From Dokdonella sp. (GTDB taxonomy: Bacteria > Pseudomonadota > Gammaproteobacteria > Xanthomonadales > Rhodanobacteraceae): a stretch of DNA of 64,000 nt. Both the position numbers and the translations under genes were made by a program. Of this stretch, positions 10,137 to 30,960 are shown piece after piece; position 1 is the stretch's first letter, and the number at the start of each line of letters is the position of its first letter. The notes beneath the pieces are model-generated. The model was not told where the DNA came from and searched no databases. It worked only from the letters and a program-made list of their open reading frames with translations. The stretch is from the NCBI RefSeq assembly GCF_019634775.1, contig NZ_JAHCAS010000002.1:1-64000 (forward strand), in the 5' to 3' direction.

Positions 10137-10157
10137 GGTCGGACCTCGTGTATCACG

Positions 10158-11339: not shown

Positions 11340-11368
11340 GGGAACGAATGTAGCCTGAGAGTACGTAA

Positions 11369-11983: not shown

Positions 11984-11999
11984 TACTCCGGTGAATGCG

Positions 12000-13939: not shown

Positions 13940-13945
13940 AGGCGG

Positions 13946-14758
13946 TTAGAACGGAATTTCGTCTGACTCCAAGCCGGACGACTTCGTTAGTGCCTGTACC
14001 TTGATCTTTCCTTCCAGCGCCTTGATGAATCGGATCGAGGCCGCAACGTGGTTGAAGATCAGCAGGCTTTCCTCGTAGTTGAGAATCGGGTTGTCGTGCG
14101 CGAGGCTCTTGTTGTTGCGGACATCGTTGAATGCCTCCAGAACGGAGATACTGGATTTCAGGATGCGCTCGGTCATTGCCGACTCCAGGTGCCCGCCATC
14201 GCGCAGGGCGCGGACGTACTCGCCGAACACGCTGTGCAGCGGCTTGTCGCGGTTGATCTCGATGCCGTGAGGCTCGCAGGCAATCCGAACAAACTTGATG
14301 ACAAAAGTGTGCAGCCGGTCGAGTGCGCCTTCGGGCTGGTTCTTCTCAATGGCCTCGCGCACATGCTCGGCCACCACCTCGAAGTCGCGTTCATCGGCGG
14401 TCGCAGCCAGTGCGTCCAACTCCGCGACCGGCTGGTCGCTGAGCAGGCGCTGGGCGATCTTGCGGCAGTCGTCGACCAGCACGGGATTGCTGTCACCGAA
14501 ACACTGCTCCTCGCCCGCGTAGTCGATCAGGCCGCCGATGACGCGACCAACCACATGGTTCGCATCCAATTCCCAATGGGTGCGCAGGCGATTGGCTTTG
14601 GATGTTCCGCGCGCCCAGTAGCGATCGGCGTCGATCTCGACCCGGTACTCATCGAAGAATTCCCCGAACGTGCGGTCGGAGAAGTTGAGTACATACCCGC
14701 TGCCCATTCCAAGCAGCTTTTCCAGCTTCCGACGTTCACTCCCTGTAAGGTCAGACAT
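13946..14758 (-). CDS. Abortive infection C-terminal (Abi_C) family protein
   Basis: A 270-residue protein whose C-terminal 80 residues match the Abi_C type: LKSSISVLEAFNDVRNNKSL followed by AHDNP and a helical tail, including the RNxxSxAHD motif at about residues 217-225. Abi_C domains are HEPN-like and occur in phage-exclusion proteins. The N-terminal part (MSDLTGSERRKLEKLLGMG, then a DRTFGEFF segment) is conserved in this family too. It is the last gene of the leftward hsd operon, seven bases after the PIN-like gene, which suggests a toxic back-up arm for the restriction system. Confidence 0.65.
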   Translation of the reverse strand: MSDLTGSERRKLEKLLGMGSGYVLNFSDRTFGEFFDEYRVEIDADRYWARGTSKANRLRTHWELDANHVVGRVIGGLIDYAGEEQCFGDSNPVLVDDCRKIAQRLLSDQPVAELDALAATADERDFEVVAEHVREAIEKNQPEGALDRLHTFVIKFVRIACEPHGIEINRDKPLHSVFGEYVRALRDGGHLESAMTERILKSSISVLEAFNDVRNNKSLAHDNPILNYEESLLIFNHVAASIRFIKALEGKIKVQALTKSSGLESDEIPF

Positions 14759-14765
14759 TGCGCGC

Positions 14766-15464
14766 CTATAGCCCCAGAAGATGTCGGGCAGCCCCGAAGT
14801 TCGGCGCGTACTCCATCAGCAGGGGGGCAAATTCCGCTTGCAACGCGGTGTGAAGTTTCCCGTTGGCGCAGTAATCGGCCGTGTTCGAGGAAAGGAATAC
14901 AACCTTGCTCGACAGGCCGCTACTGCGCAAGCGACCAACGGTCTCAAAGTAGGTTTCGATGATGGCGCAGTCGCCCGGCGATCCCTTGCCCTTTTTCGAT
15001 GGCGGTTGTGCCAACACCGAACGGCGATGGGCGCGGGAAGGAATGTCTGCCGATTGCGGTACGTGCTCGGCTACGTTGATCAAGCGATCAGCGGCAGATC
15101 GGGCGAGCTGCGGATGATTGTCCCAATGGCTTGTCGCCAGTGCGCCGTTCGCGCCGAATTGAGCTGCGATGGTATTCACGCGCTCGATCCGTTCGCGGAA
15201 CTTGTCGAGCGCTTTCTTGCTTTCTTCTTGAATGTTGACGACGTGTTCCTGAAACTCCTGTCGAACCTGATCGCACGCGAGCGCCACGAGCGTCTTCTGG
15301 TTCTCGATACGATCCAGAAGATCGAGCGCAACTGCAAGATCGGAGGGTTGCGCTGTATCGCGCGTCGGATCGCGCAGGATGTCGAGGATGGAGCACGTAT
15401 CGAGGCACAGGACGGGCAAGCCCGCCTGCAGGATGCGCGTCACGTCGGCTGGCTGAAGCCCCAT
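14766..15464 (-). CDS. PIN-like domain protein
   Basis: A 232-residue protein with PIN-like features: an N-terminal strand with acidic residue in LCLDTCSILDILRD (about residues 18-31), a mid-protein helix with ACDQVRQEFQEH, and a C-terminal SPGDCAIIETYFE and VVFLSSNTADYC, giving the spaced Asp/Glu expected in the active site of this ribonuclease fold. Start MGLQPADV at 15464 is two bases after the upstream stop; earlier in-frame codons overlap that gene. PIN nucleases usually cut RNA and act as toxins. No classical VapB antitoxin is adjacent; the preceding gene might fill that role. Confidence 0.6.
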   Translation of the reverse strand: MGLQPADVTRILQAGLPVLCLDTCSILDILRDPTRDTAQPSDLAVALDLLDRIENQKTLVALACDQVRQEFQEHVVNIQEESKKALDKFRERIERVNTIAAQFGANGALATSHWDNHPQLARSAADRLINVAEHVPQSADIPSRAHRRSVLAQPPSKKGKGSPGDCAIIETYFETVGRLRSSGLSSKVVFLSSNTADYCANGKLHTALQAEFAPLLMEYAPNFGAARHLLGL

Positions 15465-15466
15465 GC

Positions 15467-16132
15467 TCAATCCAGATGCTGATCGTATTTTTGCAATAAC
15501 TCCAGACCGAATTCGTACTCGATGACCAAATCCCAAGCGGCTTCCGCAGGCCAGTGCTCGACCTCGATGAGCCACCGTTTCAGGGTGTCGCCCGCCTTGC
15601 TCTGCTCCTTGTGCGCTGCAATCACAAAGGCAAGCCAGCGATCCCGGTCCATCGGGTGCGAAGACCCCGTGGACTTGTTGGCGAGCCGAGAAAATCGGAC
15701 AAGCAGGTCGGCAGTTCCCTGCGACATCCAGTCGGTCAGGGACTGCCTGTCATTGCTGATATCGAGCCGAAGACCAAGGCGTGCCGCCACCGGTGCGACG
15801 GTCTGATCGGAAAACTGACGCAAGGCCGCGTTGTACTGCTGATAGTTCAACTCACCGATGTCGACCGGGACGATGTTGGTGACACGGAAACTGTCGGGGT
15901 CTTTCCACAGTACCAGCCCGACCTTCGGCGAATCGCCGCTCGCCTCGCGTTCGAAGGCGATGAATTCGGTTTCAGTACCCGATGAAATGGCCGCTTCGCG
16001 CTCCGGCGCGTGACGCCACGGCAGCGCAGCCTGCGCGACCAGTGCGTCGCGCACTTCGGTTTGCGCTCGGCCATCGAGCCACAAGGTTAGGTCTTGGAAT
16101 ACTTCGATGGAAGCCGGGGCATCGGCGCTCAT
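15467..16132 (-). CDS. Unknown protein in hsd operon
   Basis: A 221-residue soluble protein that I do not recognise. It has no signal peptide or membrane segment. The middle holds FIAFEREASGDSPKVGLVLW and VTNIVPVDIGELNYQQYN, and the C-terminal third is Trp- and Glu-rich (LKRWLIEVEHWPAEAAWDL). The ATG at 16132 is preferred over that at 16147 because AGGAG lies seven bases before it. It stands two bases before the PIN-like gene, so it could be its regulator or antitoxin; this is only a positional inference. Confidence 0.7.
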   Translation of the reverse strand: MSADAPASIEVFQDLTLWLDGRAQTEVRDALVAQAALPWRHAPEREAAISSGTETEFIAFEREASGDSPKVGLVLWKDPDSFRVTNIVPVDIGELNYQQYNAALRQFSDQTVAPVAARLGLRLDISNDRQSLTDWMSQGTADLLVRFSRLANKSTGSSHPMDRDRWLAFVIAAHKEQSKAGDTLKRWLIEVEHWPAEAAWDLVIEYEFGLELLQKYDQHLD

Positions 16133-16150
16133 GTGCTTCTCCTGCATCGG

Positions 16151-16291
16151 TTACTGACGACAGGCCCGCCGCTCCAACGCTGCGGGTTGCAAAGTGGTGG
16201 CAGGGAAATGGAAGGTGTCCGCCGACACAGCAACCTTCTCCATGCGCAGCAAGGTGTCGGCATCAGATTGTGTAAGTGCGTCCTCGGCCAT
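16151..16291 (-). CDS. 46-residue ORF after hsdR, probable fragment
   Basis: The ATG at 16291 follows GGTGA at a good distance and lies four bases after the hsdR stop. The product begins MAEDALTQSDADTLLRMEK, like the N-terminus of a small-protein family (DUF6978-like) often placed beside defence genes, but after about residue 30 the similarity I recall ends and the frame stops at 16151-16153. It may be a truncated relic left when the next gene was inserted, or a short real peptide. Confidence 0.4.
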   Translation of the reverse strand: MAEDALTQSDADTLLRMEKVAVSADTFHFPATTLQPAALERRACRQ

Positions 16292-16295
16292 AACT

Positions 16296-19200
16296 TCACC
16301 CCAATCCGAAATACCGCTCGAAGAACGCCGCGAGCTTGTCCAGCACAGTCTGCTTCTTCGCCGAATGGTTGTTGTTCTTCGAGAACCGCGACACGGGCGG
16401 CAGAATCTTCGTGATGGCCGTGCCCGTGGTCGGGATTGCGCCGTCGCGGAAGGCGTTGTCCACGAACGCCTTCGCCTCGTCGGCCTTCAAGCCCTCGTCG
16501 GCGATGATCTGGTCAAGCTCTTCGGCCTTCTTCCTGGCAACGAACGCCTGCCATTCCGCATCCACCCGGGCTTTGGGCGAAACGGAATCCACGAACTGCT
16601 CGATGAGGTCTTTCTTGTTGCGCAGCGACGGGCTGGAATTGATCGCGCGCTCGATGGTCGCGAGGATTTCCTTGTCCTTGCCAGTGCCCTTGGCTTTGAT
16701 GTACCGCTCGACCAGCATCAGGATGTAATCGACGTTGATCTCGACCTGCTTGATCAGCTCGATCTCGAACACCACGTCGTCGTTGATCGTTTCCTTCTCG
16801 GCCTCGGACGCGCTGCGGAACTCGGCGTACAGGTTCAGGTACAGGCTCTGGTAGTCCTGAAAATCGCGGTCGGAAAGGATTTCGTTACCCGCGAAATCGT
16901 CGAAAGCCGTGAGGATGTTCTTCAGCCGCAGGATCGAGCCGAACAGCTTGATGAACGCCTTCTGCGCCGCCTCGCCGGTGATGGCCTTGCCCAGCGGGAA
17001 CAGCGCCACCAGTTCGGCGACTTTCTTCTGGTACTCGGCGTAGTAGTCCGCGTAGGGCTTGAGCAGCACGATGCCCTTGGCGTCCTTGTTGCCGAACAGG
17101 GCCAGCGCGTCGTTGGTCGCCTGCTCCAGATCGCGGAAGGAAACGATGTTGCCGTAGGTCTTGACCGAATTGAGGATGCGGTTGGTGCGCGAATACGCCT
17201 GGATCAATCCGTGCGCACGCAGGTTCTTGTCCACCCACAGCGTATTGAGCGTGGTGGCGTCGAAGCCGGTCAGGAACATGTTGACCACGATCACGAGGTC
17301 AAGCTCGCGGTTCTTCAGCCGCTGCGACAAATCCTTGTAGTAGTTCTGGAACTTGTCGGCGGAGGTGTCGAAGTTGGTGGCGAACAGGCCGTTGTAGTCC
17401 TTGATGGCCGCATCGAGGAAGTCGCGTGAGCCCTGATCCAGCCCTTCGGTCTCGAATTCCTCCTCTTCCAGCAGGCCATCGGCGTCCTCGTTGGCGGCGA
17501 AGCTGTAGATCAGGCCGATCTTCAGCCGCTGTGCGGGCGGGATGTCCTTTTGCTGGCTGGCAAACTCCGTGTAGTAGCGTTTGGCCGCATCGATGGAGGC
17601 CGTGGCGAACAGCGAGTTGAAGCCGTTGAGCCGCTTGCCGCCATGCCGATAGCTGGCGCTGCGCTTGGTCTTCTGGTCGAAGTGCTCGCGGATGTAGCCC
17701 GCGATCTGCGTGATGCGCTCCGGCGCGAGCAGTGCCCGCTCCGTGTCGATGGCTGACACCTGCTTGTCGCGCACGTTCGGCGCGGTCTTGATGGTGTTGA
17801 TGTAGTCGATGCGGAACGGCAGCACGTTCTTGTCGTTGATCGCATCGACGATGGTGTAGGTGTGCAGCTTGTCGCCGAAGGCCTGCTCGGTGGTGCGCAG
17901 TCGAGGATTGCCGCCCGAGCCCGCGTTGTCGGCGAAGATCGGCGTGCCGGTGAAGCCGAACAGGTGGTAGCGATTGAAGACGCGGGTGATCTCCGCGTGC
18001 ATGTCGCCGAACTGGCTGCGGTGGCATTCGTCGAAGATCACCACGACGTGCGCGTCGTACACCGGGTGCTTCTTGTTCTTGGCGACGAAGCGGCTGAGCT
18101 TCTGGATGGTGGTGATGATGATGCGCGCGTTCGGGTCTTCCAGCTGCTTTTGCAGCACCGCCGTCGAGGTGTTGGAGTTCGCCGCGCCTTTCTCGAAGCG
18201 TTCGTATTCGCGCATGGTCTGGTAGTCCAGATCCTTGCGATCCACCACGAACAGCACCTTGTCGATCTCCGGCAGGCCGCGCGCCAGTTGCGCGGCCTTG
18301 AAGCTCGTCAGCGTCTTGCCGCTGCCCGTGGTGTGCCAGATGTAGCCGCCCGCTGCCACCGTGCCCAGTTGCCGGTGATTGGTGGCGGTGGCGATGCGTT
18401 GCAGGATGCGTTCCGCCGCGACGATCTGGTAGGGGCGCATCACCAGCAGCTTGCGATCCACGTCGAACACACAATACTTGGTGAGGATGTTCAGCAGGGC
18501 GTGCTTGGCGAAGAAGGTCTTGGTGAAGTCGGCCAGTTCGGTGATCGGCTGGTTCTTCGCGTCGGCCCACCAACTGGTGAAGGAAAAGCTGTTCGAGGTC
18601 TTCTTGCGGTCGCGCTTGTTGCGCTGCTCGGCGAGGTGGCCGTCGCGCACGGTGTTGCTGTAGTACTTGGTCAGCGTGCCGTTGCTGATTACGAACAACT
18701 GCACGTACTCGAACAGGCCGGAACCGGCCCAGAAGCTGTCGCGCTGGTAGCGGTCGATCTGGTTGAACGCCTCGCGGATGTCCACGCCCCGCCGCTTCAG
18801 CTCGATGTGCACCATCGGCAGGCCGTTGACCAGCACCGTCACGTCGTAGCGGTTGGCGCGCTTGCCTTCGATCTCGTACTGGTTGATGACCTGCAGGCGG
18901 TTGTTGTGGATGCTCTGCTTGTCGATCAGGTAGATGTTCTTGGTGCTGCCGTCGTCGCGCTTCAAGACCTGAACGTGGTCTTCCTGGATGCGGGCGGTCT
19001 TCTCGACGATGCCGTCGTTGGCCCCGGCGATCTTCTCGCCGAAGAACTGCTGCCATTCCTTGTCGCTGAACGTGATCTTGTTCAGCGCCTCCAACTGGCG
19101 GCGGAGGTTGGCGATCAGGTCGGCTTCACTGGTGATGCGCAGATATTCGTAGGCCTGAACCTGCAAGCGCTCGATGAGGTCGCGCTCAAGCTCCGCCTCG

Positions 19201-19313
19201 GACTGGTAGCGTTCTTCGCGCACCTCGTTCGGGCGCACGAACTCCGCGACGACGGTGCTTTCGTTGGAAAGCGCAATCGCTTCGTAGCGGGAGGGCTTGA
19301 GGTCTTCGCTCAC
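16296..19313 (-). CDS. hsdR: Type I restriction enzyme subunit R (EcoR124I-like)
   Basis: A 1005-residue HsdR of the type IC/EcoR124I kind. The nuclease centre is NRYDVTVLVNG and MVHIELKRRG (about residues 176-196). Motor motifs: WHTTGSGKTLTSF (about 328), DECH box in IFDECHRSQFGD (about 425), FGFTGTPIF (about 455) and QAYSRTNRIL (about 705). It cleaves unmodified DNA after translocation, acting with HsdM2-HsdS. The start GTG at 19313 overlaps the hsdS stop by 4 bases. It differs strongly from the orphan HsdR at 4-7 kb (DECH versus DEAH, different flanks), so the two are separate acquisitions. Confidence 0.95.
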   Translation of the reverse strand: MSEDLKPSRYEAIALSNESTVVAEFVRPNEVREERYQSEAELERDLIERLQVQAYEYLRITSEADLIANLRRQLEALNKITFSDKEWQQFFGEKIAGANDGIVEKTARIQEDHVQVLKRDDGSTKNIYLIDKQSIHNNRLQVINQYEIEGKRANRYDVTVLVNGLPMVHIELKRRGVDIREAFNQIDRYQRDSFWAGSGLFEYVQLFVISNGTLTKYYSNTVRDGHLAEQRNKRDRKKTSNSFSFTSWWADAKNQPITELADFTKTFFAKHALLNILTKYCVFDVDRKLLVMRPYQIVAAERILQRIATATNHRQLGTVAAGGYIWHTTGSGKTLTSFKAAQLARGLPEIDKVLFVVDRKDLDYQTMREYERFEKGAANSNTSTAVLQKQLEDPNARIIITTIQKLSRFVAKNKKHPVYDAHVVVIFDECHRSQFGDMHAEITRVFNRYHLFGFTGTPIFADNAGSGGNPRLRTTEQAFGDKLHTYTIVDAINDKNVLPFRIDYINTIKTAPNVRDKQVSAIDTERALLAPERITQIAGYIREHFDQKTKRSASYRHGGKRLNGFNSLFATASIDAAKRYYTEFASQQKDIPPAQRLKIGLIYSFAANEDADGLLEEEEFETEGLDQGSRDFLDAAIKDYNGLFATNFDTSADKFQNYYKDLSQRLKNRELDLVIVVNMFLTGFDATTLNTLWVDKNLRAHGLIQAYSRTNRILNSVKTYGNIVSFRDLEQATNDALALFGNKDAKGIVLLKPYADYYAEYQKKVAELVALFPLGKAITGEAAQKAFIKLFGSILRLKNILTAFDDFAGNEILSDRDFQDYQSLYLNLYAEFRSASEAEKETINDDVVFEIELIKQVEINVDYILMLVERYIKAKGTGKDKEILATIERAINSSPSLRNKKDLIEQFVDSVSPKARVDAEWQAFVARKKAEELDQIIADEGLKADEAKAFVDNAFRDGAIPTTGTAITKILPPVSRFSKNNNHSAKKQTVLDKLAAFFERYFGLG

Positions 19314-19888
19314 GCGGCCTCCCGGAAGGTGAGCAGGCGGTCGCGGTAGTGCTCGTACTGCTGGCGGCGGGCCTTGATCTCGGCGGGCAGGCCGGAGGAG
19401 AGGTCGTTCACCAGTGCGTCGAATTTGTCGAGGATGGCGGCGATACGTTCCTGATCATCAAGCGAAGGAACAGGAATCGGGTATGCCTTGATGATTCCGA
19501 TGTTTAGATCGGAGCGATTCCCGTGGCCACGAGAACGCAGATCGTCGTACTGATTGACGAGCCAGTGATAGACGAACCTGTAATGCGCCTGTGCAGGATC
19601 GATCTCCATATTGCAGCAATGCTGGTTCGTGGTAAGCGGAATCTTGTTGACCGCGACACGACCTCGCGTGACACCGGCCCCGGAGATGGCAACGATGACG
19701 CTGTTCGCTGGGACCCACTTTGCTGCCGAGTTTTTCAGTCCTGCTTCGGTGATCGTTACGCTGGTCGAATGGATGTCCGAGTAGTCAACTTCCTGAGTGC
19801 GCAGCCACGGAATATCCCCGCCGTAGAAATCGGCGCGCCTCGACAAGGGCGTCCCGCCGGACGACACGCTTAGACAGATGTCACTCAA
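19310..19888 (-). CDS. hsdS: HsdS second half (TRD2), out of frame with first half
   Basis: This 192-residue reading frame holds the second target-recognition domain of HsdS (GGTPLSRRADFYGGDIPWLRT near its start is typical of a TRD entry) and a C-terminal conserved helix RRQQYEHYRDRLLTF. It lacks a good start: the first candidate is TTG 19888, but the frame is open upstream through the CAAG repeat to 19930. It is the continuation of the first hsdS half, displaced by one base. With seven or four CAAG units instead of six, a fused HsdS would be read. As it stands it may be untranslated or made as a half subunit. Confidence 0.85.
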   Translation of the reverse strand: MSDICLSVSSGGTPLSRRADFYGGDIPWLRTQEVDYSDIHSTSVTITEAGLKNSAAKWVPANSVIVAISGAGVTRGRVAVNKIPLTTNQHCCNMEIDPAQAHYRFVYHWLVNQYDDLRSRGHGNRSDLNIGIIKAYPIPVPSLDDQERIAAILDKFDALVNDLSSGLPAEIKARRQQYEHYRDRLLTFREAA

Positions 19889-19899
19889 GGTCGTCCACC

Positions 19900-20562
19900 T
19901 TATACTTGCTTGCTTGCTTGCTTGCTTGCGCTATCCGTGCGCTCGCCGAACGTCAAAAGCGCGTCGCGGTAGTACTTGTACTGCCGCCGACGCGCCTCCA
20001 GCTCCGCCTCCAGCTCCGCCTCCAGCTGGGTGAATCCGTCAAGCACCTTCACTATTTCGCGCTGGATTTCGAGCGGCGGCACGGGCACGCGAATCTTCGC
20101 AAGACTCTTGGCCGATACGTCGATGACCTTCGTGCCTGTGGCCTGTTTCTTCTTCTGCGCGAGGAAGTCGGGCGTGCGGAAGTAGTACGACAGGTACTTC
20201 GGGTCTTGCCCGTGCTTGATCACTGTGGCGTGGCCGCCGGTGACGATTTGCGATTCACCGAGCCATGCGACCGCCTTGCACACGTCCTCGACGTTCTCGC
20301 TGGTGTTGGTGATGATCAGATCGCCGGCATCGACCTTGGCGAGCGGCGCAGCGGTGTCCGGCGCGACGAAGGAGATGGTTTCGGTCGCCCAGACCCCATA
20401 GTGGGTGTAAATCTGGCCGTAGTGGATGCAACCGACGCCGGATTCTGTGAAGTCGGATTTGGGCATTCCATTGCCGCGAACCAGTTCGGCGATGTCTCCC
20501 AATGCCATGAACTCGATACCGTCGGGGCAAAGCTCGGCGATGAGGCGATCAATGCGGCTCAT
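19900..20562 (-). CDS. hsdS: HsdS first half (TRD1), ends in phase-variable repeat
   Basis: A 220-residue N-terminal half of HsdS, the specificity subunit. It starts MSRIDRLIAELCPDGIEF, has one TRD (LVRGNGMPKSDFTESGVG), a segment typical for the TRD end (AKIRVPVPPLEIQREIV) and the central conserved helix with two and a half LEAE repeats and RRRQYKYYRDALLTF. It then ends SASKQASKQV, encoded by the CAAG tract, with TAA at 19900-19902. A half-size HsdS can in known cases (EcoDXXI, NgoAV) dimerise and give a palindromic target, so both states may be active with different specificity. Start overlaps hsdM (ATGA). Confidence 0.9.
   Translation of the reverse strand: MSRIDRLIAELCPDGIEFMALGDIAELVRGNGMPKSDFTESGVGCIHYGQIYTHYGVWATETISFVAPDTAAPLAKVDAGDLIITNTSENVEDVCKAVAWLGESQIVTGGHATVIKHGQDPKYLSYYFRTPDFLAQKKKQATGTKVIDVSAKSLAKIRVPVPPLEIQREIVKVLDGFTQLEAELEAELEARRRQYKYYRDALLTFGERTDSASKQASKQV
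19905..19929. repeat. Tetranucleotide tract (CTTG)6, i.e. (CAAG)6 in the hsdS strand
   Basis: Six perfect CTTG units (19905-19928) plus one base. On the coding strand they read CAAG and sit exactly between the two hsdS halves. In the current frame the first half stops after the tract; adding one unit or removing two joins the frames without any stop (the junction would read ASIRWTTLSDIC). Such tracts mutate by slipped-strand mispairing. Confidence 0.95.
19994..20029. repeat. 12-bp repeats encoding LEAE in hsdS
   Basis: GCCTCCAGCTCC occurs at 19994-20005 and 20006-20017, followed by a partial third copy at 20018-20027. In hsdS this encodes LEAE-LEAE-LEA in the central helix. Such units correspond in position to the TAEL repeats of EcoR124I, whose number sets the distance between the two half-targets. 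Confidence 0.8.
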
Positions 20563-22124
20563 GCCCGCTCCCCTTCCAGATCGGCGACGATGGCATCGAT
20601 CTGCGCCCGCAGCTTCGCTTGCCGTGCCACGATGTGGGCTATCTGGGCGTTGAGCGCCTTGATGTCCACGGCTTCCGTGGTGTCCGGCTGTTCGACGTAG
20701 GACGAAATCGTGATCTTGTAGCTGTTTCCGGCGATGTCGCCGTTGTCCACCAGCTTGGCGAAGTGTTCGACATCCTTGCGATTGACGAAGGCGTCGAGAA
20801 TCCTTTGCTGGTTCGCTTCCGTGAGCTTGTTCTTGTTGCCGTTACGCACGAACTCGGCAGAGGCGTCGATGAACAGCGTCTTGTTGTCGTGCTTGGATTT
20901 CTTCAGCACGATGATGCAGGTTTCGGTCGTTGTGCCGAAGAACAGATCGGGCGGCAACTGGATGACGGTATCGACGTAGTTGTTGTCGATCAGGTACTGG
21001 CGGATCTTCTGCTCCGCGCCGCCGCGATACAGCACTCCGGGATACTCGACGATGGCCGCCGTGCCGTTGACTGCAAGCCAACTGAGGATGTGCATCGTGA
21101 AGGCGAGGTCGGCGTAGCTTTTCGGCGCGAGCACGCCCGCAGGCGCGAAGCGCGGGTCGTTGATCAGCAGCGGATTGCTGTCGCCCGCCCACTTGATGGA
21201 ATACGGCGGATTGGAAACGATGGCCTCGAACGGCTCGTCGTCCCAATGCGCCGGATCGGTGAGCGTGTCGCCGTGCGCGATGTCGAACTTCTCGTAGTTC
21301 ACGTCGTGCAGGAACATGTTGATGCGGCACAGGTTGTAGGTGGTCAGGTTGATTTCCTGCCCGTAGAAGCCCTGTCGCACCTTGTCGTGGCCCAGCACCT
21401 TGGCGAACTTGAGCAGCAGCGAGCCGGAGCCGCAGGCTGGGTCGTACACCTTGTTGACCTCGGTCTTGCCGCTCACTGCGATGCGTGCCAGCAGTTCGGA
21501 GACTTCCTGCGGCGTGTAGAACTCGCCACCGGACTTGCCGGCGGTCGAGGCGTACATCTGCATCAGGTATTCGTAGGCGTCGCCGAACAGGTCGATGGTG
21601 TTGCCGTTGTGGCTCAGTGGAAGATCACCGATGGCGTCGAGCAGCTTGACCAGTTTTTCATTGCGCTTGGCGACGGTGGGACCGAGCTTGCCGCTGTTGA
21701 CGTCGAGGTCGTCGAACAGGCCCTTGAAGTCGTCTTCGCTGTCCGCGCCGATGGCCGAGCCTTCGATATCCTTGAACACGCGGGACAGGGTCTCGTTGAG
21801 GTTGGCGTCGTGCCGCGCCCGCTCGCGCACGTTGACGAACAGGTGCGAGGGCAGGATGTAGAAGCCCTTTTCCTTGACCGTTTCGGCGCGGCCCTGTTCG
21901 GCATCGGCATCGGAAAGCGCGGCGTAGTCGAAAGCCTTTTCGCCGGCGCGATGGGCTTCGTCGTTCAGGTAGGCGGTGAGGTTCTCCGAGACGAAGCGGT
22001 AGAACAGCATGCCGAGCACGTAGCTCTTGAAGTCCCAGCCGTCCACGCTGCCGCGCAGGTCGTTGGCGATGCGCCAGATGGTTTTGTGCAGTTCCGCCCG
22101 TTCGGCTTCTTTGTTGTTGTTCAC
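20559..22124 (-). CDS. hsdM: Type I DNA methyltransferase subunit HsdM
   Basis: A 521-residue N6-adenine methyltransferase of the EcoR124I type. The N-terminal domain includes GWDFKSYVLGMLFYRFVSEN; the SAM-binding motif is DPACGSGSLLLKF (about residues 230-242) and the catalytic motif NPPYS (about 308). Two HsdM with one HsdS make the modification enzyme and protect host DNA. The start is GTG at 22124, eleven bases after a small HTH gene, so the regulator may lead the operon. The stop overlaps the hsdS start by 4 bases. Confidence 0.95.
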   Translation of the reverse strand: MNNNKEAERAELHKTIWRIANDLRGSVDGWDFKSYVLGMLFYRFVSENLTAYLNDEAHRAGEKAFDYAALSDADAEQGRAETVKEKGFYILPSHLFVNVRERARHDANLNETLSRVFKDIEGSAIGADSEDDFKGLFDDLDVNSGKLGPTVAKRNEKLVKLLDAIGDLPLSHNGNTIDLFGDAYEYLMQMYASTAGKSGGEFYTPQEVSELLARIAVSGKTEVNKVYDPACGSGSLLLKFAKVLGHDKVRQGFYGQEINLTTYNLCRINMFLHDVNYEKFDIAHGDTLTDPAHWDDEPFEAIVSNPPYSIKWAGDSNPLLINDPRFAPAGVLAPKSYADLAFTMHILSWLAVNGTAAIVEYPGVLYRGGAEQKIRQYLIDNNYVDTVIQLPPDLFFGTTTETCIIVLKKSKHDNKTLFIDASAEFVRNGNKNKLTEANQQRILDAFVNRKDVEHFAKLVDNGDIAGNSYKITISSYVEQPDTTEAVDIKALNAQIAHIVARQAKLRAQIDAIVADLEGERA

Positions 22125-23639: not shown

Positions 23640-23813
23640 CCATCTTCTGATTGCGCTGCCGGGGTGTCCAGTTTCTGGATACCCTTTCGGCGCTGGCGGC
23701 GGTACATTCACTGATCCCAGGTAATCGGGCGTCGAAATGGCACGAACCCCGCGCCGTTGCTGGGTTTCCGGCCGTCACCGTTTTTCGGCCCCCCGTTCCG
23801 CAAACCCCGCTGG

Positions 23814-23854
23814 GGGTGCGAACCTGCGAACCGTGCGAACCTCGGTTCGCACCC
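23814..23854. repeat. GTGCGAACC iteron cluster with inverted copy
   Basis: Direct repeats GTGCGAACC (23816-23824), TGCGAACC (23825-23832) and GTGCGAACC (23833-23841), then the inverted copy GGTTCGCAC (23844-23852). The outer 11 bp form a perfect inverted repeat (GGGTGCGAACC and GGTTCGCACCC). It lies in a 520-bp gene-free stretch (23640-24160). It resembles a protein-binding array. Confidence 0.7.
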
Positions 23855-23924
23855 TGACAGTAGCGAAGCCCTGCGCTCGCGCCCCCCGTATTACGTCTTC
23901 CACAGGAAGGACCCGTTTTGCCTC

Positions 23925-24032
23925 GGGCGACCTTCGTTCTGCCCGACCACAACAATAAGGAGTGACCGTCACAACCATCACCATCGTCACGCCGGCCGCC
24001 ATTCGGTGATGGTCGTGACGGTGGTGATGGTC
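23925..24032. repeat. Inverted 3+3 array of 9-bp iterons, copy 1
   Basis: Consensus NACCRTCAC. Left half: GACCGTCAC (23964), AACCATCAC (23973), CATCGTCAC (23982, one mismatch). Right half on the other strand at 24006, 24015 and 24024. The 40 bases before it (from ACCTTCGTT at 23925) are also shared with copy 2 at 25209-25301. It ends 128 bases before the gene at 24161. Confidence 0.8.
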
Positions 24033-24160
24033 ACCGCCCTTTGTTGCGGCTCGCCGAAAACGGACTGCGCGCGGTCGCCAAGCCCGCATCGCACCGCAGC
24101 CAACGACCGCGCCCGTTCTCGGACAGCGTTGGACGACGTTGGCCGGTAGACTGATCGGCG

Positions 24161-24883
24161 ATGAATCCCGAACTCCTCGCCCTGGCTCTGCGCACGCCGC
24201 TGGAACAATTGCTGGCGCTGCCGAATGCCATCCGCATCGTCGTGCTGGCGAAGGAGGAATTGGTTCGTTTCGACGACGACCAGTTGCAGGAATTGCTGGC
24301 GTGGATCGACGCGACGATCCTGCAGGCTGCGGCATTGGACGAGGACGCGGCGCGCGACGACGAACGCGATCTGGATTGGCTGATGCGGGCCATCGAACAC
24401 CACGAGGTGGTCGCGCTGGAGGACGGCACGTCGTTCGGCTTCCGTGACTGCTACCGCGTGCTGGCGCTCTACAAGCTCGGTGTGGTCATCGATGCCGTGG
24501 GCGATCCATCGGCGGGTGTCCTCGGTGTGTCCGTGACGGCCGTGTTGATGGAGGCGTTGGAGGCCGTGTTGCTGTCGGATTTGCTGCCGGACGTAGAGTC
24601 GGTGGAGGCGGTCGTCGAGCGTGCGTGGCGCGAGGGATTGACGCCGCCCGTCGATGTGGCGCACGAGGTCAAGCGCGCCAAATCCCAAGGCGGGCGCAAG
24701 GCCGCCGACATTCGGCACGCCACGAATCGCGAAGCCAAGACCCGCGCGCTGGAACTGTATTGGAACGGGAAATACAGCAGCATCGATGCAGCGACCAAGA
24801 TCATCGGCGCGCAGGTATTCCGATCTCCGGCCACGGTGAGGAACTGGATATTCGAGGATCGCAGGCAGCGCGGCACCAGATAG
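24161..24883 (+). CDS. Unknown protein with C-terminal basic helical region
   Basis: A 240-residue acidic, Leu-rich protein (MNPELLALALRTPLEQLLAL). The first 150 residues are helical without recognised motif; residues 165-240 become basic (HEVKRAKSQGGRKAADI, SSIDAATKIIGAQ, SPATVRNWIFEDRR) and read like a small helix-turn-helix. It lies between the two iteron arrays, with alpA after it. It could be a replication or copy-control factor of the element, but this is a guess from context. Confidence 0.6.
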   Translation: MNPELLALALRTPLEQLLALPNAIRIVVLAKEELVRFDDDQLQELLAWIDATILQAAALDEDAARDDERDLDWLMRAIEHHEVVALEDGTSFGFRDCYRVLALYKLGVVIDAVGDPSAGVLGVSVTAVLMEALEAVLLSDLLPDVESVEAVVERAWREGLTPPVDVAHEVKRAKSQGGRKAADIRHATNREAKTRALELYWNGKYSSIDAATKIIGAQVFRSPATVRNWIFEDRRQRGTR

Positions 24884-24890
24884 AAGCCGT

Positions 24891-24908
24891 CACGCTGCGC
24901 GCAGCGTG
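24891..24908. repeat. 18-bp perfect palindrome after the gene at 24161
   Basis: CACGCTGCG and CGCAGCGTG directly joined, seven bases after the stop. It could form a hairpin at the end of the transcript; no T tract follows, so termination would not be classical. Confidence 0.5.
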
Positions 24909-24960
24909 ATTCCTGTGCGCGCAGCGGTTCTACCGCCACGACGAATCGTGGCATTGAATA

Positions 24961-24992
24961 GCGAGCATCCCGAAACGACCACGGATGCTCGC
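24961..24992 (+). promoter_or_regulatory. 10-bp inverted repeat overlapping the alpA start
   Basis: GCGAGCATCC (24961-24970) and GGATGCTCGC (24983-24992) are perfect inverted repeats 12 bases apart. The right arm covers the ATG at 24985. It may be an operator or an mRNA hairpin hiding the start. Confidence 0.5.
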
Positions 24993-25191
24993 GATGAAAC
25001 TCTCCCGACCGCTTCTGCCCGATACCGGCTTTCTCCGGTTGCCGCAGATTCTTTCCCTGATCCCGATCAGCCGCTCCGCGTGGTGGGCGGGCATCCGCGA
25101 AGGCAAATTCCCCAAGGGCGTCAAGCTCGGTAGCAAGACCACGGTCTGGCGCGCCGAGGACATCCGCGCGCTCATCGACCAGTCGCGCTGA
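24985..25191 (+). CDS. AlpA-family excisionase-like regulator
   Basis: A 68-residue protein of the AlpA/MerR-like excisionase type: FLRLPQILSLIPISRSAWW, GIREGKFPKGVKLG and TTVWRAEDIRALID, the standard winged-helix pattern. AlpA proteins switch on integrase or excision functions in prophage-like elements. ATG 24985 lies inside an inverted repeat; ATG 24994 is an alternative just behind it. It precedes the P-loop ATPase gene and may bind the iteron arrays or the inverted repeat. Confidence 0.85.
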   Translation: MLAMKLSRPLLPDTGFLRLPQILSLIPISRSAWWAGIREGKFPKGVKLGSKTTVWRAEDIRALIDQSR

Positions 25192-25204
25192 CGGGGTGCT
25201 GGTC

Positions 25205-27001
25205 ATGGCACCTTCGTTTCCGGCGACCTCAGCAATAGGGGGCGACCATCACCACCATCACGACCGTCACATCGGTGAGGGTGGTGATGGTCGTGACGGT
25301 CAAAGCGCACCTGACGCACTGGCCGTCATCGAGGGTGCGCTCGCCCGCCTGCCCGCAGATGTCGGAGCCATCTTCGAGCCGGGGGTGATCTCCGCGCTGT
25401 CTGGCCTGCGCTCCCATGACATCGCCAGCTACCAGCGCCTTCGTCAGCAGGCCAAGAAACTCAACCCCGCCTGTTCCATCACGGCACTGGACGCCGCCTT
25501 GCGCGGGGAATCGGACGGTGCCGAAGAATCCTCGGCGCTGGACGAACTGGTGTCACTGGCGCGCGAGCAATGCCAGTTGCACCACGACGCCGACCGGCAG
25601 GCTGTGGCCGTCGTCCCGATGCCCAACCGTCGGGAGGTCTGGCGCGTGCAGTCTTCCGGTTTCGCGGACTGGTTGCGCGCCGCCTACTGGCGCGCCCGGC
25701 AGGCTGGTGTCACCGACACCACGATGAAGGCGGCGCTCGCCACCCTGTCGGCGGCGGGCATCAACGACGGCGAGCCGGTCGAAGTCCACGTCCGCGCCGC
25801 CCGCTGGCAGGACGGCTACGTCATCGACCTGTGCGACGAGTGTTGGCGGGCGGTCGAAGTGAATCCACGCGGCTGGCGCGTGGTTGCCGAATCCCCGGTG
25901 CTGTTCACCCGCACGCCCTCGATGCGGCCGTTGCCGATGCCTGTTGCTGGCGGCGACATTGGCCTGCTCTGGCACCACACCAATATCCCGCCGAACCGCC
26001 GCGTGCTGGTCTTGGCGTGGCTGCTGGACTGCTGGCGTCCCGACACCCCGTTCCCGGTGTTGGAACTGGTCGGCGAACAGGGTTCGGCGAAGTCCACCAC
26101 GCAATCCGTGCTGCGCAGTCTGGTCGATCCGAACAAGGTGATGTTGCGCGGGCGGCCCAAGACGGTGGAGGACGTATTCGTCGCCGCCGCGAACAACTGG
26201 CTCGTCTCCTACGAAAACCTCTCTGGCCTGACGCCGGAACAGCAAGACGCGCTCTGCACGCTCTCGACCGGCGGCGGCTTCGCGGCGCGGCAGCTTTACA
26301 CCAATGGCGAGGAACACGTCCTCGAATGCAAGCGCCCGGTGGCCTTGAACGGCATCGCCGTCGTCGCCACGCGCCCAGACCTGATCGACCGCGTGATCCA
26401 CGTCGATCTGCCGACCATTCCGGCCGAGGCCCGGCGTGACGACGCCGACACGCACGCGGGCTGGGAACGCGACCTGCCGCGCGTGTTTGCTGGTCTGCTC
26501 GACCTGTTCGCTGCGGCGCTGGCGATCCTGCCCACGGTCACGCTGGCGCGCAAGCAGCGCATGGCGGACTTCGAACGGCTGGGCGAAGCGGTGGCGCAGG
26601 CCTTGGGATTCGACGCGGGCGAGTTCCAGCGCCAATACGCCGAACTGGTGCGCGCGGGCATCGACCGGGCTCTGGAGAGCAATGCCGTCGCACAGGCCCT
26701 CGACAAATACATCGCCGAGCGCCTGACGCCGCTGAACTGGCAGGGCACGGCTGGGCAACTCTACGACCTGCTCGGCAACTTCGGCATCCCCGACCGCAGC
26801 ACCTGGCCGCGCTCGCCGAAAGGCTTGGCCGACCAGCTTCGGCGCATTGCTCCGGCTTACCGCGCCAAGGGCATCGACATCAGTCATCTGGGCCACGGGC
26901 GCGACGGCGCGCTGTGGCGTATCGCGCAGATGCGCTCCATCAACCCTGCCACGCCGCCCGGCATCGAGAGCGGCATTCGCTACGGAGAACACCGTGGGTA
27001 G
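25205..27001 (+). CDS. P-loop ATPase, probable replication helicase of the element
   Basis: A 598-residue protein. The central ATPase shows Walker A VGEQGSAKSTTQ (about residue 290), then VSYENLSGLTPEQQDAL (about 335) and a sensor-like region with VVATRPDLIDR (about 387), as in superfamily 3 or primase-helicase-type proteins of mobile elements. No primase domain is visible. The first 35 residues are odd: His- and Gly-rich (DHHHHHDRHIGEGGDGRDG), because the reading frame runs through iteron array 2. ATG 25205 is the best start; GTG 25196 is possible. It probably drives replication or copying of the excised element. Confidence 0.65.
   Translation: MAPSFPATSAIGGDHHHHHDRHIGEGGDGRDGQSAPDALAVIEGALARLPADVGAIFEPGVISALSGLRSHDIASYQRLRQQAKKLNPACSITALDAALRGESDGAEESSALDELVSLAREQCQLHHDADRQAVAVVPMPNRREVWRVQSSGFADWLRAAYWRARQAGVTDTTMKAALATLSAAGINDGEPVEVHVRAARWQDGYVIDLCDECWRAVEVNPRGWRVVAESPVLFTRTPSMRPLPMPVAGGDIGLLWHHTNIPPNRRVLVLAWLLDCWRPDTPFPVLELVGEQGSAKSTTQSVLRSLVDPNKVMLRGRPKTVEDVFVAAANNWLVSYENLSGLTPEQQDALCTLSTGGGFAARQLYTNGEEHVLECKRPVALNGIAVVATRPDLIDRVIHVDLPTIPAEARRDDADTHAGWERDLPRVFAGLLDLFAAALAILPTVTLARKQRMADFERLGEAVAQALGFDAGEFQRQYAELVRAGIDRALESNAVAQALDKYIAERLTPLNWQGTAGQLYDLLGNFGIPDRSTWPRSPKGLADQLRRIAPAYRAKGIDISHLGHGRDGALWRIAQMRSINPATPPGIESGIRYGEHRG
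25209..25301. repeat. Inverted 3+3 array of 9-bp iterons, copy 2
   Basis: GACCATCAC (25244), CACCATCAC (25253), GACCGTCAC (25262); then inverted units at 25275 (one mismatch), 25284 and 25293. It shares about 90 bp of alignable sequence with copy 1, including the upstream ACCTTCGTT and CAATA(A/G)GG stretch. It lies inside the beginning of the ATPase gene. Confidence 0.8.
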
Positions 27002-27072: not shown

Positions 27073-27912
27073 ATGAAACTCAACCCCTTCAGCAAGAAGT
27101 CCGGCTACCTCGCGCGCATCAAGGCCGAGTACGCCGAAGCACAGCACAAGCTCGACGCCCTGAAAGCACAAGCCACCGAGGCGCAGGCCGAGTACGAAGC
27201 CAAGCGCAAGGCCAGCCGCGAGATGGAGGCGCGCGGCAATCACCACCTGTGGACCGACGGCGAAGTCCGCCTGAGCCGCCAAGCCGATGCTGCTTGGCAG
27301 CGCGTCAACGAGCTGCAACGCGAAGCCACCGAACTGGAGCGCGAATGCAATCGCCTGCACGCCATCGTCGCGGCGCCGGGCAAGCTGGAGCAAGCGCGTG
27401 CCGCGATCATCGATCTGCGTCACCGTCGCGGCGTGCTTCAGTCCGAACGCGCGCAGTCGGTGAAGGCCGTCGCCAAGCTCGAAAGGCGCATCGGCGAACT
27501 GGAACAACGCATCGCCGCCGAAACGCAGGCCGCAGGCGAAGCGATGGCTGCGGACGACGGCGACTTCACGATGTCCGAGACCCTGGCAAAGGTCGACACC
27601 GAACTGCGCATCGCCCGCACCACGCTGAAGAACGTCACCGGCAAGGTGCAAGCGCTCGATGCCGACATTGCCGCGATCCCGAATCAACTGTGGGAAGCGG
27701 AGCGGGCATTCAAGTTTCACCAATCCGAGGTCGCCGAGATCGAACTCAACGAGCAGTTGCCGAATGTGCTCGACACCTTCGCCCGCGCCGCCGTTTCGAT
27801 CTGCACCGTCAACGGCTACGGCCGGCGCGAGGACGAATACACCATCAGCATTCCGCTGGACTACGTCGAGGCCGCCCGCGCCAAGCTGGCCGCTGAGATG
27901 CCGGGCGCGTGA
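27073..27912 (+). CDS. Coiled-coil protein of unknown function
   Basis: A 279-residue, mostly coiled-coil protein (KAEYAEAQHKLDALKAQA; LEQARAAIIDLRHRRGVLQ; AKLERRIGELEQRIAAE), with a small globular C-terminal part (SICTVNGYGRREDEYTISI). ATG 27073 follows AGGAGATC. It stands between the ATPase and further small genes of the element. No family is recognised; a structural or SMC-like accessory role is possible. Confidence 0.7.
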   Translation: MKLNPFSKKSGYLARIKAEYAEAQHKLDALKAQATEAQAEYEAKRKASREMEARGNHHLWTDGEVRLSRQADAAWQRVNELQREATELERECNRLHAIVAAPGKLEQARAAIIDLRHRRGVLQSERAQSVKAVAKLERRIGELEQRIAAETQAAGEAMAADDGDFTMSETLAKVDTELRIARTTLKNVTGKVQALDADIAAIPNQLWEAERAFKFHQSEVAEIELNEQLPNVLDTFARAAVSICTVNGYGRREDEYTISIPLDYVEAARAKLAAEMPGA

Positions 27913-27939: not shown

Positions 27940-28329
27940 ATGAATGATTGTTCGCTACTGCCCATCGGCGCTGACAGCTTGCCGATGGAAGTCGAAGTCC
28001 TCGGCTGGTTCGCTGCCGGTCACGACGTGCTGTGGATTCCCATCGTCGAGGTGGGCGACGGGCCGGACGCCATCGCGCGGGCACAGGCGCAAGCCGATGC
28101 GCTCGGCAAGCCCTACCTGCTGGAGAGCGTCGAGGAATTCGCCCGGCTGCCCGATGGTGTCCGGGGCTGGGTGTTTCCGGCGCATCAGGACGACACCTGC
28201 ATCGTGGCCACGCGCAACGGCGGCGAGGTGACGTTCGGCGTACTGCGCCATCCGGTCACGGGCGAAGCCATCCGCTACCGCACCGACACGGAAACCGCCG
28301 TGGGCCTGACCCCACCATTGGCGGCCTAG
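27940..28329 (+). CDS. Unknown small protein of the element
   Basis: A 129-residue soluble protein starting MNDCSLLPIGADSLPMEVE, preceded by GGAGGTC. It contains VEVGDGPDAIARAQAQAD and GVRGWVFPAHQDDTCIVAT. No family or motif is recognised. The codon use matches its neighbours, and its tight spacing suggests it is expressed with them. Confidence 0.65.
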   Translation: MNDCSLLPIGADSLPMEVEVLGWFAAGHDVLWIPIVEVGDGPDAIARAQAQADALGKPYLLESVEEFARLPDGVRGWVFPAHQDDTCIVATRNGGEVTFGVLRHPVTGEAIRYRTDTETAVGLTPPLAA

Positions 28330-28406: not shown

Positions 28407-28883
28407 ATGTCGAATCCAACGATCACCGCACCGACATTGGCGGCACGTCTGGCGGCGCTGCCGACGATGCCGATGGAACGCCTGTGGCAACTGTGGGACG
28501 AGCATTTCCCGCGCCGCCCGCAGAAGGTTACGCGCCGCACCCTCGAAGCACGCCTCGCCCACCGCTTGCAGGAAGTGGAACTGGGCGGCCTGCCGCAGAA
28601 GATCAAGGATCACCTTGCCGATGTCGGCGAGCGGCATTCCAAGATCAAGGTCGGACGCGTGCCTGACCGCAACGTCAAGCGCAGTCTCGGCAAACGGTTG
28701 ATGCCCGGCACGACGCTGATCCGCGAATGGGAGGGACAGGAATTCCGCGTCACGGTCGCGTCCGATGGCTTCTACCTATTCAACGGCCAGCGGTTCAAGA
28801 GCCTGTCCGGCGTCGCGCGCAGCATCACCGGCACCAACTGGTCGGGGCCGCGATTCTTCGGCGTGGAGGATGGTGGCCGATGA
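28407..28883 (+). CDS. DUF2924 protein
   Basis: A 158-residue protein with the DUF2924 pattern: TMPMERLWQLWDEHFP, RTLEARLAHRLQE near the N-terminus, then PGTTLIREWEGQEFRVTV and FNGQRFKSLSGVARSITG in the C-terminal half. DUF2924 genes almost always precede a serine recombinase, as here (ATGA overlap), so it is likely a DNA-binding partner of that enzyme. The C-terminal region resembles the recombinase-associated domain that touches DNA, but its exact job is not known. Confidence 0.9.
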   Translation: MSNPTITAPTLAARLAALPTMPMERLWQLWDEHFPRRPQKVTRRTLEARLAHRLQEVELGGLPQKIKDHLADVGERHSKIKVGRVPDRNVKRSLGKRLMPGTTLIREWEGQEFRVTVASDGFYLFNGQRFKSLSGVARSITGTNWSGPRFFGVEDGGR

Positions 28884-30244
28884 AGAAGTACCCCGCACCC
28901 ACCACGCCACTGGTTTCGCCGAAACGATGCGCCGTCTACTGCCGCGTGTCCAGTGACGAACGGCTCGATCAGGAATTCAATTCCATCGACGCGCAGCGCG
29001 ATGCAGGTCACGCCTTCATCGTCAGCCAGCGCGCCGAAGGCTGGATCGCGGTCGGCGACGGTTACGAAGACCCCGGCTACTCCGGCGGCAACATGGATCG
29101 TCCGGCGCTGCGCCGATTGCTGGCCGACATCGAGGCCCGTCGCATCGATGTGGTCGTGGTCTACAAGATCGACCGTCTCTCGCGCAGTCTCGCCGACTTC
29201 GCCCGGATGGTGGACGTGTTCGACCGCCACGGCGTGTCCTTCGTGTCCGTCACGCAGCAGTTCAACACCACGACCTCGATGGGCAGGCTCACGCTCAACA
29301 TCCTGCTGTCCTTTGCGCAGTTCGAACGCGAGGTCACCGGCGAGCGCATCCGCGACAAGTTCGCGGCGTCGAAAGCCAAGGGAATGTGGATGGGCGGCGT
29401 CGTGCCCTTGGGCTACCGTGTGGAGAACCGGCAACTGCTGATTGAGCCTGTCGAAGCCGCCACCGTCCGCCGCATCTTCGAGAAGTTCGTCGAGACGCGC
29501 TCCACTACGGAGGTCGTGCGCTGGCTGCGGCGCGAGGGCATCACCAGCCGCAAGGGGTGCGCCTTCACGCGCAACGCACTGGTCAAGCTGCTCAACAACC
29601 CGATGTATCGGGGCGAGATCGCGCACAAGAACAAGGGCAAGGTGTATCCGGGACAGCACGAGGCCTTGATCGCACCGGAGCTGTGGAACGCGGTGCAGGC
29701 CGTCTTCGCCGAGAACCAGCGCGCCTACGGGACGGCCACGCGGCCACGGCGCGGGCCGGAGTTCCTGTTGGCTGGCTTGGTGGAAACCGACGCGGGCGAA
29801 CCGCTGCACACCACGTTCACCACGAATTCCGCCGGCAGGTGCTACGCCTACTACGTGCCACGGCGCGTGCGAGCCCTGGGCGAACACCACGCTCTTGGGA
29901 GCATTCCCGCCGGGCAACTGGACGAGGTGGTGCTGGCGCAAATCCACGCCGCGCTTCGCACGCCGGAGATGGTGCAGTCCGTGTGGGACGCGACGCAGGC
30001 CTGCGGCGCGAAGCTCGACGAACCGGAGGTGGTGCTGGCCTTGCTGCGTAACCTCGGCGCGGTGTGGCAGGCGCTGTATCCGGCGGAGCAGCAGCGCATC
30101 GCGCAGTTGCTGATCAAGAAGGTGGTGGTCAGCGCGGAAGCCGTGTCCATCGTCTGGCACGACGCGGGCTGGGCGGAACTGGCGACGGAGCTTCGGCCTG
30201 GCAGCATCGGCGCGGAACTGCGGGAACTGGAGGAAGCGGCATGA
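28880..30244 (+). CDS. Large serine recombinase
   Basis: A 454-residue serine recombinase. The catalytic domain starts CAVYCRVSSDERLDQEF with the nucleophile serine in CRVSS (about residue 19), then VVYKIDRLSRSLADF (about 93) and LLSFAQFEREVTGERIRDK (about 145). A recombinase domain follows (GYRVENRQLLIEP, TRNALVKLLNNPMYRGE). The usual zinc-ribbon cysteines are missing: the site reads LLAGLVETDAGEPLHTTF. It should catalyse integration and excision of the element. It overlaps DUF2924 and the next gene by ATGA, so the three are one unit. Confidence 0.95.
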   Translation: MKKYPAPTTPLVSPKRCAVYCRVSSDERLDQEFNSIDAQRDAGHAFIVSQRAEGWIAVGDGYEDPGYSGGNMDRPALRRLLADIEARRIDVVVVYKIDRLSRSLADFARMVDVFDRHGVSFVSVTQQFNTTTSMGRLTLNILLSFAQFEREVTGERIRDKFAASKAKGMWMGGVVPLGYRVENRQLLIEPVEAATVRRIFEKFVETRSTTEVVRWLRREGITSRKGCAFTRNALVKLLNNPMYRGEIAHKNKGKVYPGQHEALIAPELWNAVQAVFAENQRAYGTATRPRRGPEFLLAGLVETDAGEPLHTTFTTNSAGRCYAYYVPRRVRALGEHHALGSIPAGQLDEVVLAQIHAALRTPEMVQSVWDATQACGAKLDEPEVVLALLRNLGAVWQALYPAEQQRIAQLLIKKVVVSAEAVSIVWHDAGWAELATELRPGSIGAELRELEEAA

Positions 30245-30711
30245 ACTTCAAGCAGACGGGCGACGCCATCCGTGGGTCGAACCTGACGACGGTCATTCCG
30301 ATCAAGTTCCTGCGGCGTGGTGCGCGCAGGCTGGTGGTGCCGATGAACAGCACCGAGCAGGCTCCGAATTGCGATTCACCGATGCTGGTGGCGCTGTGCC
30401 GAGCCTGTCACTGGCAGCGGCTGATGGATGAATGCGTGGTCGAAAGCGGCGCCGACATTGCCCGGCGCGAAGGCCTGCACCCGACCACGGTCAACGAACT
30501 GCTGCGCTTGACGCGCCTCGCGCCCACCGTGGTGCAGGCCATCCTCGCGGGGCGGCAGCCGCGCACGCCGAGCCTGCTGTGGGTGAAGAACCACGAACTG
30601 CCGTGGTCGTGGGAGGAGCAGGAGGCGTTGTTCGGCGGGTTCGATGCCGCATCGGTCGGCACGGTGCCGAACGAACTACCGCGCGCAAGTGCTTGTCCTG
30701 CATCGCAGTGA
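30241..30711 (+). CDS. Recombinase-associated HTH protein
   Basis: A 156-residue protein with an HTH typical for genes behind such serine recombinases: GADIARREGLHPTTVNELL, RLTRLAPTVVQAIL and a C-terminal LPWSWEEQEALFG. The N-terminal stretch (IPIKFLRRGARRLVVP) is basic. It likely binds DNA as a directionality or accessory factor. It begins with ATGA overlap at 30241 and ends 174 bases before the tRNA-Ala gene. Confidence 0.8.
   Translation: MNFKQTGDAIRGSNLTTVIPIKFLRRGARRLVVPMNSTEQAPNCDSPMLVALCRACHWQRLMDECVVESGADIARREGLHPTTVNELLRLTRLAPTVVQAILAGRQPRTPSLLWVKNHELPWSWEEQEALFGGFDAASVGTVPNELPRASACPASQ

Positions 30712-30884: not shown

Positions 30885-30960
<76 letters not shown>

Follow-up and report, generated by a model that had tools for sequence, protein, structure and literature searches.

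Paired 9-bp iteron arrays at the gene of a helicase-like ATPase in a tRNA-integrated island of Dokdonella: candidate sites of a replication initiator

Which protein recognises two arrays of short repeats that flank a gene pair in a genomic island of Dokdonella sp., and what do these arrays do? The island lies in the window analysed here—the first 64,000 nucleotides of contig NZ_JAHCAS010000002.1—and is integrated at a tRNA gene. Each array features three tandem 9-bp units (NAYCRTCAC) facing three inverted units. Three co-directional genes encode a 240-aa protein, an AlpA-type regulator, and an ATPase; array 1 precedes the first of these genes by 128 bp, and array 2 lies near the 5' end of the ATPase gene. 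The arrays are fairly likely to be the iterons of the element's own ATPase—a putative stand-alone D5-like helicase that would act as replication initiator of the excised circle.

Array 1 (23964..24032, plus strand) consists of the direct half GACCGTCAC AACCATCAC CATCGTCAC, a 15-bp spacer, and three inverted units, and its outer flanks are likewise inverted (AACAATA...TTTGTTG). Array 2 (25244..25301, plus strand) consists of the direct half GACCATCAC CACCATCAC GACCGTCAC, a 4-bp spacer, and three inverted units. Of the 12 units, ten match NACCRTCAC in full, and the other two deviate by one base: CATCGTCAC at 23982-23990 in array 1 and the inverted CACCCTCAC at 25275-25283 in array 2. Exact ACCRTCAC cores are found at 23965, 23974, 24006(-), 24015(-), and 24024(-) in array 1 and at 25245, 25254, 25263, 25284(-), and 25293(-) in array 2. 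This core has 13 matches in the window versus 3.7 expected—a number reached in no shuffle—and triples of tandem units matching at 22 or more of 24 positions occur four times, versus 0 in 300 simulated Markov sequences of 64 kb, none of which contained even one. These counts bear out the two 3+3 inverted arrays reported in a preliminary description of this DNA, and the duplication reported upstream of them is likewise present, the 66 nt from 23930 and from 25210 sharing 76% identity. The same description had array 2 translated as the start of the ATPase gene; the array is indeed in frame with the ATG at 25205, but homology of the protein proper begins only downstream of it. Just upstream of array 1, a conserved, apparently non-coding block (23813..23963, plus strand) carries a second conserved repeat family at 23816..23852 (plus strand), which reads GTGCGAACC-TGCGAACC-GTGCGAACC-TC-GGTTCGCAC (GTGCAAACC... 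in relatives), as judged by sequence and alignment. No further copy of the array was found outside the window locus in a scan of the host genome; seven matches to the relaxed pattern on contig C2 (231002-233286) are spaced by exactly 378 bp and point to a tandem repeat elsewhere.

The arrays were compared among 27 ATPase relatives from GTDB genomes, mostly of Pseudomonadota. Most of those with a contig long enough to include them have both arrays in unchanged positions. Three relatives without an array (L020, L021, L025) have the ATPase gene only in part, and the sequences of L001 and L023 end before array 1. The spacer of full arrays ranges from 4 to 15 bp in array 1 and is always 4 bp in array 2, the right half of which is lost in the Acidovorax-type branch (L002, L004, L005, L006, L008, L009, L012, L017, L023). 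The upstream block and array 1 share about 65-76% DNA identity with some 20 relatives, in which the repeats of the block read GTGCRAACC or TGCRAACC with one inverted copy; the alignment gaps of single bases indicate that the block is non-coding.

Individual relatives vary this layout. L011 features two complete 3+3 arrays in succession upstream (4245-4476) and, hence, three arrays altogether. In L006 and L009 (3978-4664), array 1 is split into a left half and an inverted right half about 630 bp apart—with a gene for a 188-aa protein between the halves in L006—which suggests that arrays serve as insertion points. In L003 (3965-4680), two half arrays in direct orientation enclose a minus-strand toxin–antitoxin pair, named parD/parE-like by the look of its translations. 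In L022 (Lysobacter sp. ISL-50), the array spacer contains a perfect DnaA box, TTATCCACA, at 4635, and the array flank reads GGCATA/CGGATA in place of AACAATAG. In L001 (1-130), the similarity to the window ends just before array 2, at AACAATAG, and the DNA upstream is unrelated and partly AT-rich; this break may be a contig-end artefact of a metagenome-assembled genome.

The constraint on the arrays acts on DNA, since array 1 is non-coding and has the same unit as the translated array 2 and since the codons of array 2 oppose the bias of the gene. The middle His codon of array 2 is CAT in 43 of 43 cases, versus 39 of 237 in the rest of the ATPase gene; for the middle Arg codon, the share of CGT is 22 of 23 versus 128 of 789. 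These counts are indicative, coming from related, non-independent sequences with units chosen by likeness to the consensus.

The genes between the arrays are exchanged among these relatives while the arrays remain unchanged. Three families, among them that of the 240-aa protein, are found in the first slot; the second slot is occupied by either of two AlpA types or by an HTH_17 protein. Because the slot genes are swapped for non-homologous ones beside constant arrays, the arrays are unlikely to be operators of the slot proteins. The ATPase, on the other hand, is accompanied by such repeats over a much wider range—as seen in a set of 20 distant ATPase loci with 25-51% identity, obtained by whole-genome search. 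In 18 of them, the ATPase is the only shared core protein among those tested, with AlpA shared too in two; one distant locus also matched the HsdR query. Most of the array-bearing distant loci have no AlpA match. Triples of period 9, of which about 0 occur in Markov sequence, number ten in all and are spread over 7 of the 20 loci. Nine of the ten lie at most 500 bp from the matched part of the gene or within the ATPase open reading frame, and the 46 kb around the ATPase gene hold nine triples versus three in 309 kb of control DNA (about 0.4 expected). Their units mostly differ in sequence from NAYCRTCAC of the window: GTGAACATY (L076, L086); GTGTACWTG (L077, twice); GTGATGGTC (L079); CGTCCCCAR together with an inverted GGGACGCNN (L058); GGTGACGRT and its inverse (L082); and GACGCACAR (L090). 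In L076, at 47% identity, the 3' end of the ATPase open reading frame contains all six units of a 3+3 inverted array, the halves being 15 bp apart. The ATPase alone tracks the arrays, and in the simplest reading it recognises them; from these comparisons of sequence, binding of the arrays by the ATPase of the island appears quite probable.

The preliminary description had offered two readings, an initiator with its iterons at an origin or operators coupling alpA and the ATPase, and had named non-conservation of the arrays in related elements as a point that would speak against it. Such non-conservation is not observed, and the first reading is supported by three findings: the arrays are conserved, they follow the ATPase, and the family of the latter has affinities to replication proteins. 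Coupling of alpA and the ATPase, in contrast, is not supported in view of the exchange of both slots and the array-bearing distant loci without AlpA, and neither is binding by AlpA or the 240-residue protein.

The ATPase (25205..27001, plus strand) has no meaningful match in Pfam, NCBIfam, and PHROGs or among PDB sequences; DUF927, Primase_Cterm/D5_N, and primase domains are all without a Pfam match in it. Its relatives are fused to Toprim in L081, L086, and L088, to RepB_primase and PriCT_1 in L087, to AEP and PriCT_2 in L093, and to Prim-Pol—a match just below the Pfam cut-off—on the Methanothrix plasmid pH6Ac. On circular Streptomyces plasmids, the relative is a separate gene directly after a primase-polymerase (prim-pol) gene. 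These fusions and gene neighbours suggest that the ATPase family represents the helicase part of replication proteins of the primase-helicase type. Viral contigs contain almost no ATPase relatives, the query L086 being matched by its Toprim primase part. The C-terminal domain is predicted to have the order beta-alpha-alpha-beta-beta, which is that of a winged helix. In the AlphaFold model of the whole ATPase, the P-loop region is of low confidence (mean predicted local distance difference test score of 64), and D5 helicases are the best, not significant, matches. The C-terminal domain modelled alone reaches a higher confidence, yet its fold matches are weak and non-significant, several of them being winged-helix DNA binders; the C-terminal part is predicted from models to form a winged helix. 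Plasmid pH6Ac (L049) also features 11-bp tandem repeats, GCAAAGTTCGA, at 935-1014 upstream of its prim-pol-ATPase gene, which represent a candidate origin.

For the arrays as iterons of the ATPase, the following course can be proposed. The serine recombinase of the island would excise it from the 3' end of tRNA-Ala, and the ATPase would bind the 3+3 inverted iterons through its C-terminal winged helix. The inverted halves could set two ring assemblies facing opposite directions; the ATPase would then melt and unwind the adjacent DNA, with host or helper enzymes priming and extending. Array 1 together with the conserved 150-bp block is the likelier candidate for the origin core. Phage P4 has two separated sites, ori and crr, that carry the same short iterons for one initiator. 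Array 2, lying in the gene of the initiator itself, would correspond to crr as a second site. It may also permit autoregulation by the ATPase, which would repress its own gene through binding across it or through looping. The reading as an initiator helicase is drawn by analogy with known systems: Rep of Staphylococcus aureus pathogenicity islands (SaPIs) and Cch2 of the staphylococcal cassette chromosome (SCC) bind iterons beside their own genes (PMC7581432), the P4 alpha protein binds origin repeats with a winged helix (PMC4234260), and the origins of Gram-negative phage-inducible chromosomal islands (PICIs) have two iteron sets (PMC6092414). An origin function of the arrays is reasonably probable on these grounds.

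Several observations weigh against an initiator with its origin. Neither array has an AT-rich melting region in or beside it, the GC content being 53-73% in 60-bp windows, and no DnaA-like box lies near the arrays, with the exception of relative L022. No primase was recognised among the island core proteins searched. The deep branches L019 and L022, which have the most divergent ATPases of the close set, are without array 2 and have arrays upstream only. Of the 20 distant ATPase loci, 13 have no period-9 triple, and no iterons of period 8 to 24 were found near the ATPase in the relatives from Methylobacterium, Stanieria, Chlorohelix, Streptomyces, and a Microbacterium phage.

The lack of an AT-rich region would suit arrays that are operators only, with the ATPase or a partner binding both, looping 1.2 kb, and repressing the operon of the 240-aa gene, alpA, and the ATPase, with no origin role. 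The positions of array 1 ahead of the first co-directional gene and of array 2 where the ATPase gene begins are in line with this, and inverted twin sites are suited to looping. However, the surroundings of both arrays revealed no sigma-70-like promoter—a weak argument where the genome is rich in GC—and the arrays of several distant relatives lie downstream of the ATPase gene or within its 3' end, so that this account is unlikely. Origin and autoregulation are, in addition, not mutually exclusive. Binding by AlpA or the 240-aa protein, coupling excision with gene expression, draws on the location of both genes exactly between the arrays and on the activation of such islands by AlpA (PMC6092414). 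Given the differing families in both slots and the array-bearing distant loci without AlpA, it is highly improbable. The same grade applies to arrays as partition (centromere) sites for the small ParB-HTH-like or the coiled-coil protein: a weak ParB helix-turn-helix (HTH) match at 30241-30711 and a plasmid-like life cycle would agree with it, but both genes are unmatched in distant loci that have arrays with the ATPase, and no ParA was noticed in the core.

The inverted halves also raise the possibility that the arrays act as folded nucleic acid—a hairpin, a cruciform, or an mRNA hairpin controlling translation of the ATPase. For array 2, a stem of 27 bp with a loop of 4 nt would be possible, and the origin of plasmid pRN1 is a stem-loop (PMC4234260). 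In a pairing test, however, the facing units agreed less often at variable positions (93 of 315) than did shuffled partners (a mean of 136 of 315), which indicates that a pairing structure is not the conserved feature, and the hairpin idea was rejected; the loss of the right half of array 2 in the Acidovorax-type branch and the occurrence of half arrays alone likewise leave folding with a very slight chance. A role as recombination or insertion site, or as a low-complexity protein repeat in the ATPase tail without any binding, deserves just as little credence. Cassettes inside or between array halves in L003 and L006 and the swapped genes between the arrays fit recombination, but recombination at repeats can be a by-product, and a protein repeat is at odds with the non-coding array 1, which is conserved equally with array 2, and with the codon choice in array 2.

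The island with its putative ATPase initiator shares features with several known replicons. As in PICIs and SaPIs, an integrated island combines a regulator of the alpA or MerR type—here AlpA (PF05930), or HTH_17 in relatives—with a helicase-type Rep and two iteron sets at the rep gene (PMC6092414, PMC7581432). It differs by the placement of the arrays, one ahead of the ATPase gene and one within its 5' end, in place of the 3' end as in PICIs; by the lack of the AT-rich region that PICI origins have between their iteron sets; by a serine recombinase as likely integrase; by an ATPase unmatched by Pfam Rep families; and by the absence of recognised primase and phage-related genes from the core. 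The SCCmec cassettes with Cch2 or Cch feature a large serine recombinase, a putative self-loading helicase, and iterons beside the helicase gene (PMC7581432). Hosts and unit sequence differ, however, the ATPase has no DUF927 or Primase_Cterm match, and the closest NCBIfam models of the island recombinase, CcrB and XisF, are below cut-off (132.6 versus 900 bits for CcrB); it is a large serine recombinase of a subgroup other than Ccr. With P4, the island shares two separated sites of the same iterons for one helicase or initiator with a winged helix, which is predicted here. P4 alpha comprises a Toprim primase, a helicase, and an origin-binding winged helix, whereas the island ATPase has no primase domain—Toprim occurs in its distant relatives—and the integrase is of another class, with no P4-type genes recognised.

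The PLE satellites of Vibrio are islands with a large serine recombinase and their own iteron-binding initiator (PMC7145576); the latter is, however, a RepA_N protein, and no RepA_N match was found here. Replicons with a prim-pol and a superfamily 3 (SF3) helicase—pRN1 and, with this ATPase family, pH6Ac and the Streptomyces plasmids—feature a helicase joined or adjacent to the prim-pol and a C-terminal winged helix, again predicted here. The helicase of the island stands alone, and the stem-loop origin of pRN1 has no iterons (PMC4234260). Of the features of iteron origins in general, the island has tandem short repeats tied to the gene of a putative cognate initiator; an AT-rich unwinding region and DnaA boxes are not found, the one DnaA box next to an array being that of L022.

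Helicase initiators with iteron origins are already known. Within the literature searched, three features appear to be new: this family of ATPases with its iterons, the doubling of the 3+3 arrangement, and the location of iterons inside the gene of the initiator. The putative iterons lie inside the coding sequence of the proposed initiator at its 5' end here and at its 3' end in distant relatives, an arrangement that would be unusual for origin iterons. A tentative generalisation, somewhat short of an even chance, is a widespread undescribed family of replicative helicases whose origins are 9-bp iteron triplets that co-diverge with the protein and often lie inside the initiator coding sequence. 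If so, DNA encoding flexible tails of the ATPase would double as origin, since a period of 9 bp is compatible with the codon frame. The ATPase family, which has no name in Pfam, is also linked to a readily testable DNA target, and several iteron sequences with matching proteins offer natural variation for working out recognition. If the initiator reading is true, it would provide a mechanism of self-replication for a widespread type of tRNA-integrated island, here carrying type I restriction-modification and AbiL-like defence genes.

The core of the element, in the window as in relatives, consists of a DUF3489 gene, the non-coding block with array 1, the variable gene, the AlpA/HTH gene, the ATPase gene with array 2, and five further genes. 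The variable gene encodes here the 240-aa protein (24161..24883, plus strand), which has no assigned function and no match in Pfam, NCBIfam, and PHROGs, and is followed by the AlpA-type regulator (24994..25191, plus strand), replaced in relatives by a divergent AlpA or HTH_17 protein. Downstream of the ATPase lie, all on the plus strand, a predicted coiled-coil protein conserved across the element family (27073..27912), a conserved 129-aa protein of no assigned function (27940..28329), a DUF2924 protein (28434..28883), the large serine recombinase with Resolvase and Recombinase domains (28880..30244), and the small protein with below-cut-off similarity to a ParB-type HTH (30241..30711). No terminase was recognised among the core proteins searched. 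No paper describing this tRNA-integrated island with a large serine recombinase was found in the literature searched, and it is seemingly undescribed.

The right end of the element is the 3' end, at 30885, of tRNA-Ala(CGC) (30885..30960, minus strand), the sole significant match when the element was searched against Rfam. In three genomes of the same genus as the host, homology to the window sets in again exactly at 30885, and in nine relatives the right end adjoins the 3' end of a tRNA or tmRNA—mostly tRNA-Ala(CGC), once tRNA-Met, and once tmRNA. The left end was not found, position 1 of the window being also the first of the contig; 13 bp at 7966 that match the tRNA end fall within an open reading frame. 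Three minus-strand genes at 8374-11384, one of them tyrosine-recombinase-like (408 aa) as judged by the look of the sequence, may be part of this or another element. Defence-like cargo occupies 11991-22121: type I restriction-modification genes, with a short S subunit of 219 aa, are accompanied by a pair resembling AbiLi/AbiLii.

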